Positions 5,098 to 22,683 of a DNA stretch of 64,000 nt are shown here, one piece after another. The stretch lies in contig JAPLFH010000046.1 of assembly GCA_026390815.1 (NCBI GenBank), forward strand, positions 124,001-188,000, written 5' to 3'. Each line of letters begins with the position of its first letter. The first letter of the stretch is position 1. The DNA comes from Ignavibacteriales bacterium. GTDB taxonomy: Bacteria; Bacteroidota; Ignavibacteria; Ignavibacteriales; SURF-24. The notes under the pieces are model-generated. The model saw only the letters and a list, made by a program, of their open reading frames with translations, was not told the DNA's origin and did not search any database. The position numbers and the translations under genes were made by a program.

Positions 5098-6267
5098 ATG
5101 AAAAAGAGCGAAAGCGGCTGGCAGGTTAAATATTTTGGGGAGGTTGCTTCTGTAAAGACAGGTTATCCATTCGATTCAAAGTTATTCAACGAAGTTGAGG
5201 GATTTCCAATAATTCGAATTAGAGATATTAAACGTGGAGCTACATCTACTTATTATAAAGGTGAAATTTTACAAGATTATCTAATCAAAAAAGGTGATTA
5301 TTTAATTGGGATGGATGGAGAATTTAATTTAGCTGAGTGGAAATCTGAAGAGGCCTTATTGAACCAGCGAGCTTGTAAAATTGTTTTTGATGATCAGTTA
5401 ATCAATCCTAAATATGGATTTTATTTTCTTCCTAAGAAACTAAAAGAAATCGAAGATTCTACTTCATTTGTGACTGTAAAACATATTTCGCATAAGCAAA
5501 TCCTTAAAATTCAAATCCCTCTCCCGCCACTTCCAATCCAAAAACAAATTGCTGAAATATTAGAACGAGCAGACAAAGCAAAACAAAAACGCAAAGAAGC
5601 AAACAAGCTAACAGATGAATTTCTGCAATCTGTATTTATAGAAATGTTTGGCGATCCAAATACTAATACAAATGGATGGGATACTGGGATTATTAATGAT
5701 GCACTTGAATATTCTGATTACGGAACTTCAAATAAATCAAATCACGAGAAGTTAGGTTATCCAGTTCTGGGAATGGCTAACATAACCTATGAAGGGCAAC
5801 TTGATTTAACAAAGCTGAGTTTTGTGGAATTGACAGATGATGAATTCAATAAATTAAAACTTGAACAAGGTGATATAATTTTCAATAGGACTAATTCAAC
5901 AGAGTTAGTTGGGAAAACGACTTATTGGAACAAAAACCTTGATGCTGTTCTTGCCTCATACTTAGTGAAATTAAGATTAAATAAAAAATTCAATCTTGTA
6001 GTATTTTCATTCTTATTAAATACCACACACTTCAAAACGATGTTTATCAGTAGATGTAAGAAAGCGGTTGGTCAGTCAAATATTAGTCCAACATTGCTTA
6101 AAGAGTTTCCGATATATTTTCCACCACTCTCACTCCAACAACAGTTTGCAGAGATAGTAAATAAAACAGAAGCATTAAAAGAAAAACAAAAGCAATCTAA
6201 GCAGGAATTGGAAAATCTTTTTCAAAGCTTAATGCAAAAAGCGTTTAAAGGGGAGCTGGTTATATAA
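5098..6267 (+). CDS. hsdS: Type I restriction-modification system specificity subunit S
   Basis: 389 residues with the two-repeat layout of HsdS. The first target-recognition domain (~1-140) is followed by the conserved helix region around IPLPPLPIQKQIAEILERAD. The second recognition domain (~195-330) is followed by a second conserved region with FPPLSLQQQFAEIV and a coiled-coil tail. Each recognition domain would read one half of a bipartite DNA site and position HsdM. It is preceded by a 254-bp gap with direct repeats, so it may have its own promoter. It is the last gene of the modification locus. Confidence 0.92.
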   Translation: MKKSESGWQVKYFGEVASVKTGYPFDSKLFNEVEGFPIIRIRDIKRGATSTYYKGEILQDYLIKKGDYLIGMDGEFNLAEWKSEEALLNQRACKIVFDDQLINPKYGFYFLPKKLKEIEDSTSFVTVKHISHKQILKIQIPLPPLPIQKQIAEILERADKAKQKRKEANKLTDEFLQSVFIEMFGDPNTNTNGWDTGIINDALEYSDYGTSNKSNHEKLGYPVLGMANITYEGQLDLTKLSFVELTDDEFNKLKLEQGDIIFNRTNSTELVGKTTYWNKNLDAVLASYLVKLRLNKKFNLVVFSFLLNTTHFKTMFISRCKKAVGQSNISPTLLKEFPIYFPPLSLQQQFAEIVNKTEALKEKQKQSKQELENLFQSLMQKAFKGELVI

Positions 6268-6395
6268 AGATTTGCAATTCTTCTATCCTTCCTAGCCAGC
6301 CAACGAAAATTATAAATAAAAAACAGTAGTTGATTAAAGCAGGATTTAAAGGAATTGTGAAATAAATTATTTACTAAGTTACCTTGCGCAAAAAT

Positions 6396-6416
6396 GTAGA
6401 ACGAAACCCTGTTTCG
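6396..6416 (+). repeat. Degenerate REP palindrome with 5' GTAG
   Basis: GTAG (6396-6399) is followed by CGAAAC/GTTTCG (6402-6407 and 6411-6416) around CCT. It resembles the RAYT-linked REPs but the outer stem is lost. Confidence 0.6.
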
Positions 6417-6453
6417 CTTTTTAAATGAATAATTTGAAGTGAATAGATTGAGC

Positions 6454-6491
6454 GATTCAGACTCGTCTGACAAGTCAGAGAATCGATCTAC
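6454..6491 (-). repeat. Second palindrome type with minus-strand GTAG
   Basis: The inner stem TCTGAC/GTCAGA (6466-6471 and 6474-6479) and outer arms GATTC/GAATC (6454-6458 and 6480-6484) form an asymmetric hairpin. CTAC at 6488-6491 supplies the GTAG tag on the minus strand. It may be a REP variant, in inverted orientation to the one at 6396. Confidence 0.45.
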
Positions 6492-6549
6492 AATTTTTTA
6501 TTTTGCGTAATGTGAATTACTAACTTTGGCAGGTTAGGTAAACTAATAA

Positions 6550-6840
6550 ACTAATCTGGAATATAAATCCTTTCCAACCGGTTTTTATATTAAAATAAAA
6601 GCTATACTTATTAACAAGAATGAGCTGTACATTCGGGAATATACTGATCTTTCTGAAAGAAATTATTCATATCATTTGTAGGATAAGAACGGAGAATTAT
6701 TAACCAGATGGGATAATGCTCCATATCATTCCGGATTGTTTAATTCACCACATCATAAACATTTCCCAAATAAAATAGAACCATCAGACGAGATAACTCT
6801 TCAGGATGTATTAAAAACCAGCTCTCAATTTTTGAAATAA
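6550..6840 (+). pseudogene. TumE/DUF6516-like toxin remnant
   Basis: The frame from 6550 to the stop at 6838 reads in part LYIREYTDLSERNYSYHL, then a TAG at 6679-6681, then DKNGELLTRWDNAPYH and PHHKHFPNK. This pattern (YSYHxQDKxG, RxDNAPHH, PHHKH) is what I recall of the TumE toxin family of TumE-TumA toxin-antitoxin systems. The internal stop and the absence of a start codon show decay. No intact antitoxin gene is visible beside it. The rest of the 6268-6982 gap holds the two palindromes above and nothing else I recognise. Confidence 0.65.
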
Positions 6841-6982
6841 TTTACAGTTTTTTTTATCTGACTGAAATCTTTCAATGTTTTAAGATGCACCACCCAATGA
6901 GTCCCACTTTTGAAGGAAGTACAAATCGGGATTTTTTTAAGTTGTCAGCATTCCTTCCTTAGGAAAGAGCTTTAGAGAGAGC

Positions 6983-7978
6983 TTATTTGATGTATCCCAA
7001 CGTAATTCCTTCTTCTCCAAAAGGTTTTGAAATCTCTTTTACTTTTGCAATGTTTTCTTTTTCAACAACTGCAATCAATCCAATTCCGAGATTAAAAACT
7101 TCTCGCATTTCTTCATCTGCTACGTTGCCGGTATGCTGTATAAGCTTAAAAGTTGGCTGCCATTCCCAGGCTTTCCAATCAATTTCTAACTCCAATCCTT
7201 TTGGAATTATTCGCTTCGTATTTCCTACAATTCCGCCGCCGGTTATATGAGAAAAACCTTTTATCTCAATATCTTCTTTCAACTTTGTAATAATAGGAAG
7301 ATATGATTTATGCACTTTTAAAAGTTCTTCACCAAGTGTTTGATTAAATCCTTCCGGTACATCAGTTAGCTTAAATTTTTCTAATAAAACTTTTCTTGCA
7401 AGAGAGTAGCCGTTAGTATGCAGTCCATTTGATTTAAAACCAATTAGCACATCACCATCTTTTATATTTCTTCCATCAATTATTTTGGATTTTTCCACAA
7501 CACCCACAATCGTCCCAGACATATCGTATTCATCCAAGGCATAAAAACCTGGCATCTCAGCAGTTTCACCACCAATTAAAGCACAACCATTTTGCCGGCA
7601 CGCCACAGAAAATCCTTCAATTATTTTTTCTGCAATATCAGGATATAGTTTACCGAAGGCGAGATAGTCCATAAAGTAAAGTGGCTTTGCTCCACAGACA
7701 GCGATATCATTTACACAGTGGTTCACTAAATCCTGCCCAACAGTATCGTGTTTGTTCATAGCAAAGGCAATTTTTAATTTTGTGCCAACACCATCTACAC
7801 TGGAAACAAGCACTGGTTCTTTATAATCAGATACAGGTAATTCATAAAAAGCACCAAAGTGACCTATATCCATCAATACGTTTTTGTTAAAAGTCGATTT
7901 AACGTGAGCTTTAATCCGGTTAACTGTTTCTTCCCCGGCTTTAATATCAACTCCGGCAGATTTGTAATTAGCTTCCAT
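6983..7978 (-). CDS. purM: Phosphoribosylformylglycinamidine cyclo-ligase
   Basis: PurM (AIR synthetase) closes the imidazole ring of FGAM with ATP to give AIR in purine synthesis. It has 331 residues, near the family's ~345. It starts with YKSAGVDIKAGEE, which is diagnostic, and contains the PVLVSSVDGVGTKLK block and the GGGIVGN glycine-rich segment. No other purine gene is adjacent. It faces the hsdS gene across the decayed 6.3-6.9 kb stretch and diverges from hrcA across 192 bp. Confidence 0.96.
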   Translation of the reverse strand: MEANYKSAGVDIKAGEETVNRIKAHVKSTFNKNVLMDIGHFGAFYELPVSDYKEPVLVSSVDGVGTKLKIAFAMNKHDTVGQDLVNHCVNDIAVCGAKPLYFMDYLAFGKLYPDIAEKIIEGFSVACRQNGCALIGGETAEMPGFYALDEYDMSGTIVGVVEKSKIIDGRNIKDGDVLIGFKSNGLHTNGYSLARKVLLEKFKLTDVPEGFNQTLGEELLKVHKSYLPIITKLKEDIEIKGFSHITGGGIVGNTKRIIPKGLELEIDWKAWEWQPTFKLIQHTGNVADEEMREVFNLGIGLIAVVEKENIAKVKEISKPFGEEGITLGYIK

Positions 7979-14409: not shown

Positions 14410-15627
14410 ATGAGTCTAAGTCAAATTGCAAGATCGCTAAAGGCATCACCCACTCTAAAACTTAATGAAAAAGCAGCTATACTTAGAGAAAAAGGTGATC
14501 CTGTTATCCATCTTGGCGGTGGCGAACCTAAAAGCCGTGCACCAATAGATGCACTGATGGCCGCTGTTAATAACCTTAATACCGGGGAAGTTAGATATAC
14601 TCCCGCAGATGGAATTCCGGCATTAAAAAAAGCAATTATTCGTTATACAGAAGAATATTACAACCGCAAAGTGAATCCGGAAAATGTGATTGCATCTGGT
14701 GGAGCAAAACAGGCAATAATGTGCGCGCTTCAGGCAATTCTAAATCCGCAGGAAGAAGTTGTATATCCAGCGCCATACTGGGTTAGCTATCCGGAAATGG
14801 CACGGTTGTGCGGAGCAATTGGTGTTGCAGCTTTTGCTGAAGATGGTACTTTTTATCCACGCATTCAGGACATTGAACAACGGGTTGGCAGTTATACAAG
14901 AGCGATAATCATTAATAGTCCTAATAATCCAAGCGGTGCAATGTACTCTGAGCAATTTATTTCTGATGTAGTTGATTATTGCGAGCGCAAAGATTTATAT
15001 TTAATTATGGATGACATTTACCATCGCTTGATTTTTGATGGTAAAAAACCAATTAACGTTTATAATTATGCAAAAGATTTATCGGAAAATTCCAAGATTA
15101 TTGTCATCAACGGAATTTCTAAAATGTATGCTATGACTGGCTTTAGAATCGGCTGGGCTGTTGGAAATAAAAAAGTTATCGAAGCGATGACAAATATCCA
15201 GGGACATCAAACATCTGGACCGTCAGTCGTTCTTCAACTAGCTGCGGTTGGCGCTTTGAATGGTATTCAATCAAGTGTGGAAAATTTAAGAGTTACTCTT
15301 GAAAATAATAGAAATGTATTATTAGATCAGCTGAATTCTTTTGAAGGTGTTAAGGTTACAAAACCTGATGGAACATTTTACTGTTTTGCTGATTTTAGCA
15401 ACTACAATAAAAGTTCAAACAAACTTTCAGAATACCTGATAGAAAAAGTTATGGTACTTACAGTTCCGGGTGCAGAGTTTGGAATGGAAGGTTACTTACG
15501 GATTAGTTTCTGTGGAACTATAAAAGATATTACTGATGGCATTGAAAGGATCAAGTGGGCATTAGATCCAAATTCACCAAATGAACTTTACATTGGCGAC
15601 AGAAAATTAGTGAGGGACTGGGCATGA
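14410..15627 (+). CDS. Pyridoxal phosphate-dependent aminotransferase, aspartate aminotransferase-like
   Basis: 405 residues of the class I/II aminotransferase fold. Seen are GGGEP near the N-terminus, NSPNNPSGAMY, and the cofactor lysine K238 in NGISKMYAMTGFRIGW. The closest well-known family is AspC-type aspartate:2-oxoglutarate aminotransferase, which yields oxaloacetate; the substrate cannot be fixed from sequence alone. Its stop overlaps the pckA start by 4 bp (ATGA), so the two are translationally coupled, which suggests oxaloacetate is passed to PEP carboxykinase. Confidence 0.85.
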   Translation: MSLSQIARSLKASPTLKLNEKAAILREKGDPVIHLGGGEPKSRAPIDALMAAVNNLNTGEVRYTPADGIPALKKAIIRYTEEYYNRKVNPENVIASGGAKQAIMCALQAILNPQEEVVYPAPYWVSYPEMARLCGAIGVAAFAEDGTFYPRIQDIEQRVGSYTRAIIINSPNNPSGAMYSEQFISDVVDYCERKDLYLIMDDIYHRLIFDGKKPINVYNYAKDLSENSKIIVINGISKMYAMTGFRIGWAVGNKKVIEAMTNIQGHQTSGPSVVLQLAAVGALNGIQSSVENLRVTLENNRNVLLDQLNSFEGVKVTKPDGTFYCFADFSNYNKSSNKLSEYLIEKVMVLTVPGAEFGMEGYLRISFCGTIKDITDGIERIKWALDPNSPNELYIGDRKLVRDWA

Positions 15628-17279
15628 GCAAATATTTAGACTTCAAAACCCCGGCAACTAAGGAAGCTATGGAATTAGCTCCTGATTTCAGACTTAAAAA
15701 TCAAGGATTAACATTCTTAGATAGAGTTTTCTGGAATCTTCCGGATTCTGCATTATATGAAGAAGCTGTTTTCCGTAACGAAGGTAAACTTGCAGCACAC
15801 GGACCTATTATAGTTAATACCGGCAAGCATACCGCACGCGCTGCGGCAGATAAGTTTGTTGTAAAAGAATCTTCCACCGAAGGAAAAATATGGTGGGGAA
15901 TTCATAACCGTCCTTATAGTTCAGAAAAATTCAACCAACTGTTTGGTCGTTTGCAATCTTGGGCGCAGGGAGAAGAACTTTTTGTTCAGGATTGTTATGC
16001 GGGTGCAGATCCGGAATATCGTTTGCCAATTAGAGTTATAACTGAAAAAGCATGGCACAGTTTATTTGCAAGAAATATGTTCATCACTACAAACGATAGA
16101 GACACATTAAAGAAATTTATCCCAGAGTTTACGGTTATTTCCGTTCCCAGCTTTAAGGTTGATCCCGTAATAGATGGCACAAGATCAGAAACTGCCATCA
16201 TCATTAACTTTGCTGAAAGAATGGCAATAATAGCTAACTCACTTTACGGCGGTGAAATCAAAAAATCAGTATTTACTGTGCTTAATTTTCTTCTAACATT
16301 TAATGATGTACTTCCTATGCACTGCTCGGCAAACGTTGGCAATAATGGAGATGCGGCAATTTTCTTTGGATTAAGTGGAACTGGCAAGACAACATTATCA
16401 GCCGATCCAAAAAGAAAATTAATTGGAGATGATGAACATGGCTGGAGCTCAAACGGTGTTTTTAATTTTGAAGCAGGATGTTATGCAAAAGTAATTCGCC
16501 TTTCCGCAGATGCCGAACCACAGATATTTGCATGCACAAAAAGATATGGGACAATATTAGAAAATGTTGTTTGGGATCCGGTAACACGCAACATTGATTT
16601 GAATGATGATACCATAACAGAAAATACTCGTGCGTCTTATCCATTGGAATTTATCCCTAACATTGTTCCGGAAAAGATGGTTAATACTCATCCTAAAAAT
16701 ATCATCTTTTTAACTTGCGACGCTTCAGGAGTAATGCCTCCGATTGCAAAATTAAATCCCGAGCAAGCACAATATCATTTTATAAGTGGATATACTTCCA
16801 AAATTGCCGGTACAGAAATAGGATTGGGAATTGAACCACAGATTACATTCAGCGCCTGTTTCGGTGCACCGTTTATGGTTCGTCATCCATATGAGTATGC
16901 AGAAATGTTAAAGCAAAGAATGCTAAAACACAAAGCACAATGCTGGCTTGTAAACACAGGTTGGGTTGGCGGCAGGTTTGGTATTGGAAAAAGAATTAGC
17001 ATTCGCCATACGCGCAATTTACTAAATGCAGCTCTTGAAGGATTGCTTGATAATGTTGAATACAGGAAGGACAAACTCTTTGGTTTTGAAGTTCCGATAA
17101 GTTGTCCCGATGTTCCGCAGGATGTGTTAGAACCATCCAATTCGTGGGGAAATAAGGAAGAGTATTGGAAAAAGTATGATGCACTTGCTGCCCGGTTTGT
17201 GGAAAATTTTAAACTGTTTAGTAAAGCCTGTTCGCAGGAAGTGATTAACGCTGGACCGAAAAGGCTTTCGAAAATATAA
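15624..17279 (+). CDS. pckA: Phosphoenolpyruvate carboxykinase (ATP)
   Basis: PckA converts oxaloacetate and ATP to phosphoenolpyruvate, CO2 and ADP in gluconeogenesis. Of 551 residues, the kinase P-loop GLSGTGKTTLS is at 249-259 and IGDDEHGWS follows. NTGWVGGRFGIGKRISI near the C-terminus and the early TGKHTARAAADKFVV block confirm the ATP-dependent family. It overlaps the upstream aminotransferase by 4 bp and is followed by a strong hairpin. Confidence 0.97.
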   Translation: MSKYLDFKTPATKEAMELAPDFRLKNQGLTFLDRVFWNLPDSALYEEAVFRNEGKLAAHGPIIVNTGKHTARAAADKFVVKESSTEGKIWWGIHNRPYSSEKFNQLFGRLQSWAQGEELFVQDCYAGADPEYRLPIRVITEKAWHSLFARNMFITTNDRDTLKKFIPEFTVISVPSFKVDPVIDGTRSETAIIINFAERMAIIANSLYGGEIKKSVFTVLNFLLTFNDVLPMHCSANVGNNGDAAIFFGLSGTGKTTLSADPKRKLIGDDEHGWSSNGVFNFEAGCYAKVIRLSADAEPQIFACTKRYGTILENVVWDPVTRNIDLNDDTITENTRASYPLEFIPNIVPEKMVNTHPKNIIFLTCDASGVMPPIAKLNPEQAQYHFISGYTSKIAGTEIGLGIEPQITFSACFGAPFMVRHPYEYAEMLKQRMLKHKAQCWLVNTGWVGGRFGIGKRISIRHTRNLLNAALEGLLDNVEYRKDKLFGFEVPISCPDVPQDVLEPSNSWGNKEEYWKKYDALAARFVENFKLFSKACSQEVINAGPKRLSKI

Positions 17280-18141: not shown

Positions 18142-18172
18142 TGTCCGTTATTCAAAGTGAAGGGTGCAAATA

Positions 18173-19396
18173 ATGATTGAACCAAAAAATTTTTACCGAA
18201 AATTGGATTTTCTATTAAGCCGGATTGGAAGAGAGAAAAGCGGCAGAGATTTTCTCTTTAAGATTGTTAGAGATCTGGAAAATACATTCAGCAACGATTT
18301 GCGTATTGGTAATGGCAGGGTATACCAGGAAGACGAGGAAGAATATGTTTTAATTTATTCGCATTCAGATAAGAGCATTGTTAAAAATATTCCACAAACA
18401 TCCGAAGCGCTCCAGAATGTTTTGGAATTCAAGACGTTTATATTCAATGACCAGGCTCAAGGATTTGAATTAACGAATAAAAGTATGGATGAATATACAA
18501 TTCCTGCCGCCGTTGCAATTCATAATCCATCTTACCGCTGGATCATTGTATTCGATTTAAAGAGCGGATGGATAAGAGAAGAAATAGAATTTTGTCTTAA
18601 TGCAGTACGCACGGCATTAAATTCCAGACTTTATTCTGAGGCAATAAAAACCGAAATGGAACAAGCTGCTTACATTCAGCAAAGTTTGCTCCCATCAATT
18701 GTTCCAAAAATACCGGGCTACCAGGTTGCAGGCAGATCAATTCCCGCTGAATTAGTTGGCGGTGACCTGTACGATTTTTATGAATTTGATGGAGATGGTT
18801 TTGGCTTATGTGTTGGTGATGCAAGTGGACATGGATTACCAGCTGCCTTACTTGTTCGCGATGTTATAACCGGACTTCGTATGGGAATGGAGAGAGGAAT
18901 GAAAATGGTTTACACACTAAAAAAATTGAACAGAGTAATTTATAAAAGCGTTTATTCAACTCGGTTCATTTCTCTTTTTATGGCTGAATTTGAAAACAAC
19001 GGTAGTTTGGTTTATGCAAATGCCGGTCACCCGGCACCGATTCTTGTAAACGGAAATGATATTATTGAATTAGAATCTACCGGATTAATATTTGGTGCAT
19101 TACCAGAAATAAATTTAAGCAGTGCTTACGCAAAAATGAATCTCGGAAGTGTCTTGGTGCTTTTTAGCGACGGAATCTTTGAACGCCAGAACAAGAAGAA
19201 AGAATTTTTTGGAATGGAGCGGTTCAAAGAAATTATTCTAAAGAATAAAGAAAAAAATGCACAGGAAATTCTGGATACTTTATTTAGTATCGTAAACGAT
19301 TTTGGGAAAAAGAATAAATGGGAAGACGATGCAACAATTTTGGTTATTAAAAGATTAAAAATGAAACAAAACTTGTTGATAAAATTTAAAAAATAA
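18173..19396 (+). CDS. PP2C-type serine phosphatase (SpoIIE/RsbU family)
   Basis: I chose the ATG at 18173 because GAAGGG lies 8 bp upstream; a GTG at 18164 is an alternative. The protein has 407 residues. An N-terminal sensor-like region (~1-160) precedes a helical linker with QQSLLPSIVPKIPGYQVAG. The phosphatase domain follows, with metal-binding aspartates in VGGDLYDFY, GDASGHG, FSDG and WEDDATILVI. Such enzymes dephosphorylate anti-sigma-factor antagonists in partner-switching pathways. No anti-sigma factor or STAS protein is adjacent, so the target is unknown. Confidence 0.9.
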   Translation: MIEPKNFYRKLDFLLSRIGREKSGRDFLFKIVRDLENTFSNDLRIGNGRVYQEDEEEYVLIYSHSDKSIVKNIPQTSEALQNVLEFKTFIFNDQAQGFELTNKSMDEYTIPAAVAIHNPSYRWIIVFDLKSGWIREEIEFCLNAVRTALNSRLYSEAIKTEMEQAAYIQQSLLPSIVPKIPGYQVAGRSIPAELVGGDLYDFYEFDGDGFGLCVGDASGHGLPAALLVRDVITGLRMGMERGMKMVYTLKKLNRVIYKSVYSTRFISLFMAEFENNGSLVYANAGHPAPILVNGNDIIELESTGLIFGALPEINLSSAYAKMNLGSVLVLFSDGIFERQNKKKEFFGMERFKEIILKNKEKNAQEILDTLFSIVNDFGKKNKWEDDATILVIKRLKMKQNLLIKFKK

Positions 19397-19449
19397 ATTT
19401 TTCAAATCTTTTTAAACTTGTTCCGCAAAACTTAATAAAGGAAGAAAAA

Positions 19450-21795
19450 TTGATTGCTGATAGGATTAATAATATTGGTGTTTCACCAACAATGAAAATT
19501 GCAGCCAGAGCAAAGATGATGTTGGCTGAGGGAATAGATATAGTTGATCTGAGTGTTGGTGAACCTGATTTTCCAACGCCGGATAATATAAAGGAGGCTG
19601 CTAAGAAAGCTATTGATATCAATTATACAAAGTACACGTTAAATTCCGGTAGCGTAGAGCTAAGAAAAGCGATTGCAACAAAATTAAAAAATGATAACAA
19701 TCTGAATTATGATATAAGCGAAATAATTGTTTCTAACGGTGCAAAACAAGCAATTTACAATGCAATTCTTTCTATTGTTGATGAAGGTGATGAAGTTATT
19801 ATACCGGCTCCATATTATGTTTCGTATCCGGAAATGGTTAATCTTGCAAAAGGAGTACCCATATTTGTAGATACCAAGGAAGAAAATGGATTCAAATTAA
19901 CACCGGAAGAATTGAATAATGCAATTTCTGCCAATACTAAAGTTTTTATCCTTTGTAATCCATCTAATCCAACTGGCGCTGCATATACAGAAAAGGAATT
20001 AAGAGTACTTGTTGAAGTTATTGAAGATAAAGAAATATTTGTTCTAACCGATGAGATTTATGAAAAGTTAGTTTATGATGATTTTAAGTTTGTAAGTTTT
20101 GCTTCTTTAAGTGAAAAGATAAAAGAAAAAACCATAGTTATAAACGGGGTTTCAAAAGCCTATTCTATGACCGGATGGAGAATTGGTTATGCTGCTGGTC
20201 CTAAAGAAATAATTGAAGGATGCGGAAAAATACAAAGCCACAGCACTTCCGGCGCTTCATCAATTTCTCAATATGCAAGCACAGCTGCATTGCTTGGCAC
20301 TTATAAAGAAACTGATAAGATGGTTAAGGAATTCAAGAAACGTAGAGATTATGTTCTTAGCCGGTTGCATCAAATACCAAATGTTTCCTGCCATACACCA
20401 GAAGGAGCATTTTATGTTTTTCCAAATATCTCTGCTTATTTTGGAATGGAATACAAGGATACTTATATAAGAAATTCTTACGGACTTGCATACTTTATTT
20501 TGAAAGAAGCAAATGTTGCAGTTGTACCTGGTGAAGCTTTTGGAGCCGATAATTACATAAGGATTTCATATTCTACTTCAATTGAAAATTTGGTTAAAGG
20601 TATGGATAGAATTTCTGAAGCATTAAGTAAATTAGAAAAACCAGCAAGACATAAAGTATTTGAACTTAGTAATACAACCACACATATAAAAAATCCTATT
20701 GAATTAGAATCTTCCATTTCAGTGGAAAGCAGAAATGTTCTTGTTAATGAAGCCGAAGTTCATTTGAAATATGATAATTATTTTGAATGGAATGCAAACA
20801 TTAACAATGTGGTTGTGCAGCTTCGTACAAATGTTCCTCATCTTTACGATTTTTGGATAGAAAACTGGTACCCCGCACAACTAAAACCTGAAGTAAAACC
20901 TGATGGAATTATTTACGCTGTTTATGGAGTAATTGGCAGAGAGCCACATGCATTCTATAATTCAGAAACAAATACCGGAATTCTTTTTAACACTGATAAT
21001 TATGGATCGTTAAGGAGCCTGGCATTTGGACTTGTGGCAGATATTGCAGCAAAACTTTTTAATAGAAATTCTATCCGTGGAATGTCTGCGGATTATGTTG
21101 GCTCCGGCTTTGTTCTAATCGGACCAAAAGGAACTAAGAAAACGGAAATATTTTATGGGTTGCTAAAAAATGAAAACGTTGCGCTTCATTCAAGCGACCT
21201 ATTCTTTATAAATAATGAAAGCGAAAAATTGGTTGCAGAAAATCCTGAAAGAAAAATTTATGTTCCAACTTATACAGCTTCGGTTCTACCATTGCTTTCT
21301 AATTTATTCGATCTTAGCAAGTGTGAAAATGTAATTTCTAAAAATTCCGAATGCGAAACGCGCGAATGCCAGCTTACAGAAGAATGTGGAATGGACAGGG
21401 GGAATCCTTATTGCTTTAAGGCATCTCGGGAATCTTATGCAATGTTAGATCCATACTGGATTGGCGGGATGTTTAAGCATCTGAAGAAAATAAATATTGA
21501 TTACATTTTTATAATGAAGAACGATCATAAAGCGATACAGATTGAACAACTAACACCTTCAACGGCTGTTCAATTTTTAGTTTCAGGATTTACAACCAGT
21601 AGTTTGACCCCACACCAGAACAAATCACTTCCATTTTATAATGTACATTTTATAATGAATACACCAGAAAAAATAGAAGAACAGAAAAGAATTTATGAGA
21701 ATATTTTTTCTAAAGCTAAATGTTTTGCACTGAACTGTGAGAAGGGAAGTGTTGAGGAAATTCAGAATTTAATTTTGGAAACGATTAAAAATTAA
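19450..21795 (+). CDS. Aspartate aminotransferase fused to a C-terminal P-loop-like (PEPCK/HPr-kinase-like) domain
   Basis: The start is a TTG at 19450, supported by AAGGAAG just upstream and by the conserved N-terminus. Residues 1-~395 are a complete class I aminotransferase: DLSVGEPDFPTP, NPSNPTGAAY, cofactor lysine K236 in NGVSKAYSMTGWRIGY, and a C-terminal YIRISYS. Residues ~398-781 are a second domain with a P-loop-like GPKGTKKT (558-565), a cysteine group (C625, C635, C640, C646, C655) and SRESYAMLDPYWIGG. This half resembles the kinase fold of HPr kinase/PEP carboxykinase, but that assignment is tentative. The aminotransferase-pckA pair lies just upstream. Confidence 0.8.
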   Translation: MIADRINNIGVSPTMKIAARAKMMLAEGIDIVDLSVGEPDFPTPDNIKEAAKKAIDINYTKYTLNSGSVELRKAIATKLKNDNNLNYDISEIIVSNGAKQAIYNAILSIVDEGDEVIIPAPYYVSYPEMVNLAKGVPIFVDTKEENGFKLTPEELNNAISANTKVFILCNPSNPTGAAYTEKELRVLVEVIEDKEIFVLTDEIYEKLVYDDFKFVSFASLSEKIKEKTIVINGVSKAYSMTGWRIGYAAGPKEIIEGCGKIQSHSTSGASSISQYASTAALLGTYKETDKMVKEFKKRRDYVLSRLHQIPNVSCHTPEGAFYVFPNISAYFGMEYKDTYIRNSYGLAYFILKEANVAVVPGEAFGADNYIRISYSTSIENLVKGMDRISEALSKLEKPARHKVFELSNTTTHIKNPIELESSISVESRNVLVNEAEVHLKYDNYFEWNANINNVVVQLRTNVPHLYDFWIENWYPAQLKPEVKPDGIIYAVYGVIGREPHAFYNSETNTGILFNTDNYGSLRSLAFGLVADIAAKLFNRNSIRGMSADYVGSGFVLIGPKGTKKTEIFYGLLKNENVALHSSDLFFINNESEKLVAENPERKIYVPTYTASVLPLLSNLFDLSKCENVISKNSECETRECQLTEECGMDRGNPYCFKASRESYAMLDPYWIGGMFKHLKKINIDYIFIMKNDHKAIQIEQLTPSTAVQFLVSGFTTSSLTPHQNKSLPFYNVHFIMNTPEKIEEQKRIYENIFSKAKCFALNCEKGSVEEIQNLILETIKN

Positions 21796-21801
21796 TTGGA
21801 T

Positions 21802-22683
21802 CTAATTTGGAGAAATATATAATCGCAGTGCTTTAAAAATCTTTTCAACTGGCATTGTTTTACCAGTCCATAATTCAAATGATTTTGCACCTTGGTTAAC
21901 GAACATCGTTAAACCATCAACCGGAGTTGCGCCGGCAGCCTCTGCAAGCATTAATAATTTTGTTTTAAGTGGTGTATAAACCATATCAAAAACAATTTGC
22001 CCTTTATTAAACGATTCAAAATTACTTATAACAGAATCATTAACATTCGGATTCATTCCAACTGAAGTAGAATTTATTATCAACTGGGAATTTTTTAATA
22101 CGTCATCAACAGGAATTTTGAATAAGCCAAAAGTTTTAATGTACTTATAAAGCATTTTAGTGCTAAAAAAATCTTTTAATTGTTCAGCTCTTTCTTCATT
22201 CCTATTTATCAAATTAATTTTAGATGGTTTGAAGTTTCTGATTAAAGCGTAAACAGCACTTCTTGCCGCGCCACCGCTGCCAAGTATACTTATTTCTCCA
22301 TTTGTAATTTTATCTTTTAATGGAAGAAGAGTTTCCATTATTCCATGTACATCTGTGTTGTACGCTGTAAGGTTTCCGCTTTCGTTTACTATTGTGTTTG
22401 CAGCGCCAATTACGCCTACTTCTTCAGAATAATTCTTTACCAGGGGAATTATACTTTCCTTATGTGGCAGAGTGATATTCATGCCTTTAATTCCAAGTGC
22501 AACCATTCCTCTAATTGCAGTTTTTAAGTTGATTGGAGGAACATCAAAAGGAAGATAAATGTAATTTAGATTGAGCAATTCAAAAGCAATGTTATGCATA
22601 AATGGGGAAAATGAATGCTTTACTGGATGCCCAATTATGCCAGTAATTTGTGTGTCAATATTAAATTTGTCGTGTATATTCAT
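21802..22683 (-). CDS. aroE: Shikimate dehydrogenase
   Basis: AroE reduces 3-dehydroshikimate with NADPH in aromatic amino-acid synthesis. The 293 residues begin with the shikimate-binding HPVKHSFSPFMHN, then NITLPHKES with the catalytic lysine, YNTDVHG with the catalytic aspartate, and the NADP-binding ILGSGGAARSAVYAL. It is downstream of the TPR gene by 17 bp on the same strand and ends 6 bp from the convergent fusion gene. aroK and aroB are near 47 kb. Confidence 0.95.
   Translation of the reverse strand: MNIHDKFNIDTQITGIIGHPVKHSFSPFMHNIAFELLNLNYIYLPFDVPPINLKTAIRGMVALGIKGMNITLPHKESIIPLVKNYSEEVGVIGAANTIVNESGNLTAYNTDVHGIMETLLPLKDKITNGEISILGSGGAARSAVYALIRNFKPSKINLINRNEERAEQLKDFFSTKMLYKYIKTFGLFKIPVDDVLKNSQLIINSTSVGMNPNVNDSVISNFESFNKGQIVFDMVYTPLKTKLLMLAEAAGATPVDGLTMFVNQGAKSFELWTGKTMPVEKIFKALRLYISPN

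Follow-up and report, generated by a model that had tools for sequence, protein, structure and literature searches.

Two families of nucleotide-dependent enzymes and one of aminotransferases are the closest described relatives of the gene analysed here. ATP-dependent phosphoenolpyruvate carboxykinase (PEPCK; PF01293), represented by E. coli PckA (1aq2) and the T. thermophilus enzyme (1j3b), and HPr kinase/phosphorylase (HprK; PF07475, TIGR00679) are assigned to a single family of kinases (PMC1079889). The third group is that of the class-I aspartate/prephenate aminotransferases (6f77, 1j32, 5wmh), and the solved aminotransferases listed among our matches (370-475 residues) have no PEPCK-fold extension. 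In contrast, a gene in a 64,000-nucleotide stretch of an Ignavibacteriales bacterium genome (contig JAPLFH010000046.1, hereafter the window) encodes a full, motif-intact aminotransferase of this class fused to a domain of PEPCK fold. Both parts come from known families; no description of the fusion, of its operon or of its spread was found in the open-access literature searched.

The fused gene and its two domains

The fusion is encoded by a single uninterrupted frame of 781 residues on the forward strand (19450-21795), which starts with TTG preceded by the ribosome-binding site AAGGAAG (19438..19444, +), and the start position is kept among the homologues, whose N-termini read M[IL]ADRI or similar. 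The aspartate aminotransferase (AspAT) domain (residues 1-395; 19450..20634, +) matches the full-length aminotransferase profile PF00155 over residues 30-388 with 260.7 bits (cut-off 19.7; E=3e-77), and its catalytic motifs are intact: the PLP lysine motif SKAYSMTGWR (SKAYSM at 235), NPSNPTG, DEIYEK and YIRISY are all there. Its closest solved structures are the aspartate aminotransferases 6f77, 6f35 and 1j32 and the bifunctional aspartate/prephenate aminotransferase 5wmh. The original prediction of a complete aminotransferase fused to a second domain therefore stands, as the frame is continuous and the same fusion recurs in other genomes (see below). The linker that follows (residues 396-436; 20635..20757, +) is the least conserved part of the protein, being 61% identical to its counterpart in the homologous fusion L006, compared with 73% and 70% for the aminotransferase and C-terminal domains on either side, and its first part is of low confidence in the AlphaFold2 model of the C-terminal domain (pLDDT <50 for model residues 1-22).

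The C-terminal domain (residues ~414-781; 20689..21792, +) belongs to the PEPCK/HprK superfamily and has the ATP-PEPCK fold. Single-sequence searches of residues 398-781 against PDB and Pfam returned nothing meaningful (the best match was ABCB10, E 0.49), the PF01293 profile had no match in the window fusion or in the L009 fusion, and the PEPCK subfamily model NF006821 gave weak matches (E 0.06-0.11) in two fusion homologues only. The AlphaFold2 model of the domain, built from seven sequences (pLDDT 76, pTM 0.77), matched ATP-PEPCK best in a Foldseek search of the PDB, over its whole length and at ~14% identity (E 1.5e-16, TMq 0.69), and all 50 listed matches were PEPCKs. Profile comparison by hhalign agreed, aligning the domain with 24 PEPCKs from relatives over 271 columns (93.8%, E 1.7e-7), while the alignment with HprK covered the P-loop stretch only (63 columns; 90.6%, E 1.3e-6). 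TIGR00679 also matched the fusion homologues L009 (8.8e-6) and L010 (5.7e-6), whereas PF07475 had no match in the window fusion and scored 18.0 bits in L009, below the cut-off of 33.3. Because HprK and PEPCK share one kinase family, the two signals fit one superfamily, and the kinship with HPr kinase/PEP carboxykinase that had been proposed tentatively for this half of the protein is upheld. The domain shares with ATP-PEPCK the whole-domain fold, the position of the P-loop, the ENV motif and the order of the strands that follow, but it has ~370 residues instead of ~530, carries a Cys-rich loop insert and is fused to an aminotransferase. Its likeness to HprK is local, extending from the P-loop to the kinase-2 stretch, and lies below the curated cut-offs. 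A separate true HprK is encoded in every genome tested, and the idea that the domain serves as the genome's only HprK was accordingly rejected.

The correspondences between its residues and those of PEPCK were taken from profile alignment rather than from superposed structures. The PEPCK P-loop GLSGTGKT aligns with GPKGTKKT in the window fusion (residues 558-565; 21121..21144, +), in which the Walker Lys and the Thr are kept and the second Gly has become Lys, so that the sequence departs both from the kinase-1a motif G-x-S-G-T-G-K-T and from the HprK Walker A motif GxSGxGKS. Across the fusion homologues the Lys and the Thr/Ser are conserved; at the position of the second Gly most members from the class have K, N or R, and only the Gemmatimonadota, Zixiibacteriota and KSB1 copies have G, an APKGTGKS-type loop being confined to L009-L011. 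Conservation of this motif, on which the original prediction had staked its assignment, thus holds for the Lys and Thr/Ser and fails for the second Gly. Among the PEPCK metal ligands Lys213, His232 and Asp269, the PEPCK stretch YGGEIKK is replaced by YGSLRS, and therefore the equivalent of Lys213, a Mn ligand, is not Lys; the position of His232 is taken by Asn540 (21067..21069, +), which is Asn in the window and L006 and His in the 17 other full-length fused homologues compared. The third ligand seems to be retained, since the invariant Asp583 of the motif HSSD (residues 580-583; 21187..21198, +) is, from an alignment of 20 members and from the HprK alignment, likely the kinase-2 Asp (PEPCK Asp269, HprK DD). 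No equivalent of Arg65 was found in the domain. The ENV motif common to PEPCK and this domain appears as CENV, and the Cys-rich loop after it (Cys 625/635/640/646/655; 21322..21414, +, including CENV) supplants the PEPCK segment that bears Arg333; model residues 245-263, over this loop, have pLDDT <50. In 20 sequences, three of the Cys positions show a conservation of at least 90% and a fourth is Cys or His, so the group of five is only partly kept, with Cys640 often His and Cys655 often Ser. Further downstream lies DPYWIGG (667-673; 21448..21468, +), whose core DPYW.GG is invariant in the family; the P-loop, the five Cys and this motif all lie at the residues predicted for them. Because the domain is without most PEPCK catalytic residues, carboxykinase activity appears unlikely and the domain is probably not a working PEPCK, though it may still bind nucleotide; the suggestion that the same two activities occur here in fused as well as in separate form thus loses its footing.

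Neighbourhood, spread and descent of the fusion

Scanning genome contigs with a protein pattern brought up six relatives, which come from metagenome-assembled genomes (MAGs) labelled Ignavibacteriales (70% identity), Calditrichaceae, Ectothiorhodospiraceae, Gemmatimonadota, Zixiibacteriota and KSB1. Furthermore, the C-terminal domain is present in 17 of 245 genomes of the window's class, always in a fused frame of ~774-801 residues apart from one fragmented genome, in which two contig ends cut the frame. Given this recurrence in 17 of the 245 genomes and six MAGs of related or other lineages, at about 773-787 residues with some copies truncated at contig ends, the fusion is neither a chance event nor an assembly joint, and it represents an old family recurring across several bacterial phyla. 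The C-terminal domain was never seen without the aminotransferase domain, either in the class sample or in the contig scan. The other genomes of the window's order within the class sample do not have it, and in a phylum-wide sample the fusion was found in the window only. The contigs L008 and L037 are apparently one and the same, titled as an Ectothiorhodospiraceae MAG yet placed in the window's class; because of this identity the Ectothiorhodospiraceae label is doubtful and probably wrong.

Outside the window lineage the usual gene order is a flotillin-like (SPFH) gene, the fusion and a divergent PEPCK. In each of the 18 distinct fused loci whose upstream side is available (the window/L006 pair excluded), an SPFH gene precedes the fusion, and the divergent PEPCK gene lies 3-147 bp downstream on the same strand in 15 of the 17 loci that have both; in L009 and L011 it is close by but on the other strand, and in the L010 genome it is located on a separate contig. 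Examples of this ~614-residue PEPCK are found at L009:5079-6920(-), L007:1364-3202 and L030:9318-11159. It matches NF006821 over the full length (1.9e-87), although its 294 bits fall below the cut-off of 369 and it is longer (610-620 residues). In what we take to be the E. coli numbering, transferred with the help of an alignment, it keeps the equivalents of Arg65, Lys212, Lys213, His232, the P-loop, Asp268-269 and Arg333, invariant in 15 sequences. Its AlphaFold2 model, from four sequences, reached a pLDDT of 33. From these residues, the divergent PEPCK may be the functional PEPCK of lineages without canonical pckA.

The distribution of the two PEPCK types, which were separated by score (~70-95 bits versus several hundred), fits the same picture. 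The divergent type occurs in 15 of the 17 fusion genomes and in 2 of the 228 others (Fisher p 5e-20), and canonical pckA in 2 of the 17 and 146 of the 228 (p 3e-5), in tests that ignore relatedness and with fusion genomes mostly from one family (f51). Ordinary pckA is nearly always missing where the divergent PEPCK occurs; within family f58, genus g174 has the fusion and the divergent PEPCK, while genus g179 has pckA and neither of those. None of the fusion genomes tested has a GTP-PEPCK. All but one of the fusion genomes in the class sample encode a complete PEPCK, and in G342, the sole fusion genome without either PEPCK, the fusion sits at a contig end.

The window lineage has a different neighbourhood. 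Both the window genome and the L006 genome have canonical pckA and no divergent PEPCK, and they have no SPFH gene, only partial matches of ~25% being found. In the window, a separate aspartate aminotransferase gene, aat1 (14410..15627, +; PF00155 5.7e-66), overlaps canonical pckA (15624..17279, +; PF01293 1.2e-209, NF006820 8.7e-236) by 4 bp; the overlap had been predicted correctly, and the fusion, from which the pair had been placed 1.8-5 kb upstream, starts 2.2 kb after pckA. This pair is kept in nine other genomes read, L006 included. Several genomes of the order have the pair (L104, L143, L145, L146, L149, L151 and L152), in which AspAT and PEPCK are genetically coupled a second time. A SpoIIE/PP2C-type phosphatase gene (18164..19396, +; PF07228 5.5e-41) ends 53 bp upstream of the fusion; a phosphatase of this type directly 5' of the fusion is seen in the window lineage only (L006:7485-8675), at the place that the SPFH gene has in other lineages. 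Downstream, a shikimate-dehydrogenase-like gene, aroE (21802..22683, -), recognised by reading the sequence, serves as a synteny marker of the locus.

At the corresponding position, between aat1-pckA and aroE-TPR-sucC, other members of the order have an unfused aminotransferase (AAT2) akin to the N-terminal half of the fusion (mostly 55-60% identity). In G346 an unfused aminotransferase (L142:7883-9070), which has a longer branch, lies directly before a divergent PEPCK (5810-7543) without the C-terminal domain and without an SPFH gene, which suggests joint loss of the two. The tree of the aminotransferase domain is compatible with one gain of the C-terminal domain followed by losses, as a single clade of all fused aminotransferases is not rejected (p-AU 0.586); an alternative tree that joins the window pair to unfused Ignavibacteriales as sister group (support 84/56) is just as acceptable, and thus vertical descent and transfer are both compatible with the data. 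Between the window and L006 the dN is 0.23 for the C-terminal domain and 0.19 for the aminotransferase; synonymous sites are saturated or nearly so. The domain is therefore nearly as conserved as its partner, which weakens the view of it as a decaying relic, and by this comparison it is under purifying selection in the window lineage despite the loss of its usual partner.

Possible roles of the PEPCK-fold domain

As an account of these observations we lean, with somewhat less than even confidence, towards the fusion being an AspAT that carries a trimmed, largely non-catalytic module derived from PEPCK, which docks or senses nucleotide and couples the AspAT to a real PEPCK. The aminotransferase domain would turn aspartate into oxaloacetate, and the PEPCK-fold domain, with the P-loop Lys/Thr and kinase-2 Asp retained and the carboxykinase residues lost, would in most lineages couple it to the neighbouring divergent PEPCK and probably also link it to a flotillin scaffold. 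The window lineage would have lost both the flotillin gene and the divergent PEPCK, leaving the ordinary aat-pckA pair next to a fusion that is still conserved. Docking or regulation, channelling of oxaloacetate and the membrane link are what we infer, while the fusion, its fold, the lost residues, the neighbourhood and the co-occurrence are observed. Against this reading, the window lineage has lost the partner PEPCK and yet retains the domain, and the conserved P-loop Lys/Thr and Asp583 would be compatible with real kinase activity. In addition, the domain is dispensable for the pairing of AAT2 with the divergent PEPCK, because G346 keeps the pair without it. That the flotillin-type scaffold, the AspAT with its degenerate PEPCK adaptor and the pckA-replacing PEPCK form a conserved assembly in several phyla, in which the pseudo-PEPCK pairs with the active one and oxaloacetate is handed over at a membrane microdomain, is an extension that we consider distinctly unlikely as a whole.

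The main rival is that the domain is an active HPr-kinase-type kinase, acting on a protein or a small metabolite, which controls or extends the aminotransferase step and is paired in the window with the upstream PP2C phosphatase. The HprK-like P-loop region, the conserved Walker Lys, Thr/Ser and Asp583, His540 outside the window and L006, and the phosphatase gene upstream in these two all agree with such a kinase; the restriction of the likeness to the P-loop stretch, the loss of the second Gly in most members and of the His in the window, and the separate true HprK make it somewhat unlikely overall, with its best case in the L009-L011 type, where the P-loop glycine is retained. The well conserved Cys, in a loop that occupies the place of an active-site segment, could alternatively bind Zn or an Fe-S cluster and make the domain a metal or redox sensor regulating the aminotransferase, but one of the Cys is often Ser and the L008 homologue is without three of them while otherwise conserved, and we find this reading very doubtful. 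A true bifunctional AspAT-PEPCK, converting aspartate to PEP in one polypeptide, would be in keeping with the PEPCK fold of the whole domain and with the aat-pckA coupling in the same genome; it is highly improbable in view of the missing Lys213, Arg333 and Arg65 equivalents, the Asn at the His232 position in the window and the complete PEPCK gene that nearly all fusion genomes of the class encode anyway.

On the docking or nucleotide-sensing reading, the family would be a concrete example of a domain of enzyme origin put to new use as an adaptor or regulator. The fusion brings together two steps that follow each other in gluconeogenesis from aspartate, and it leads to a divergent PEPCK that seemingly stands in for pckA in its lineages. 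Its recognition should also aid the annotation of genes that family models would call just 'aminotransferase' or 'PEPCK'.
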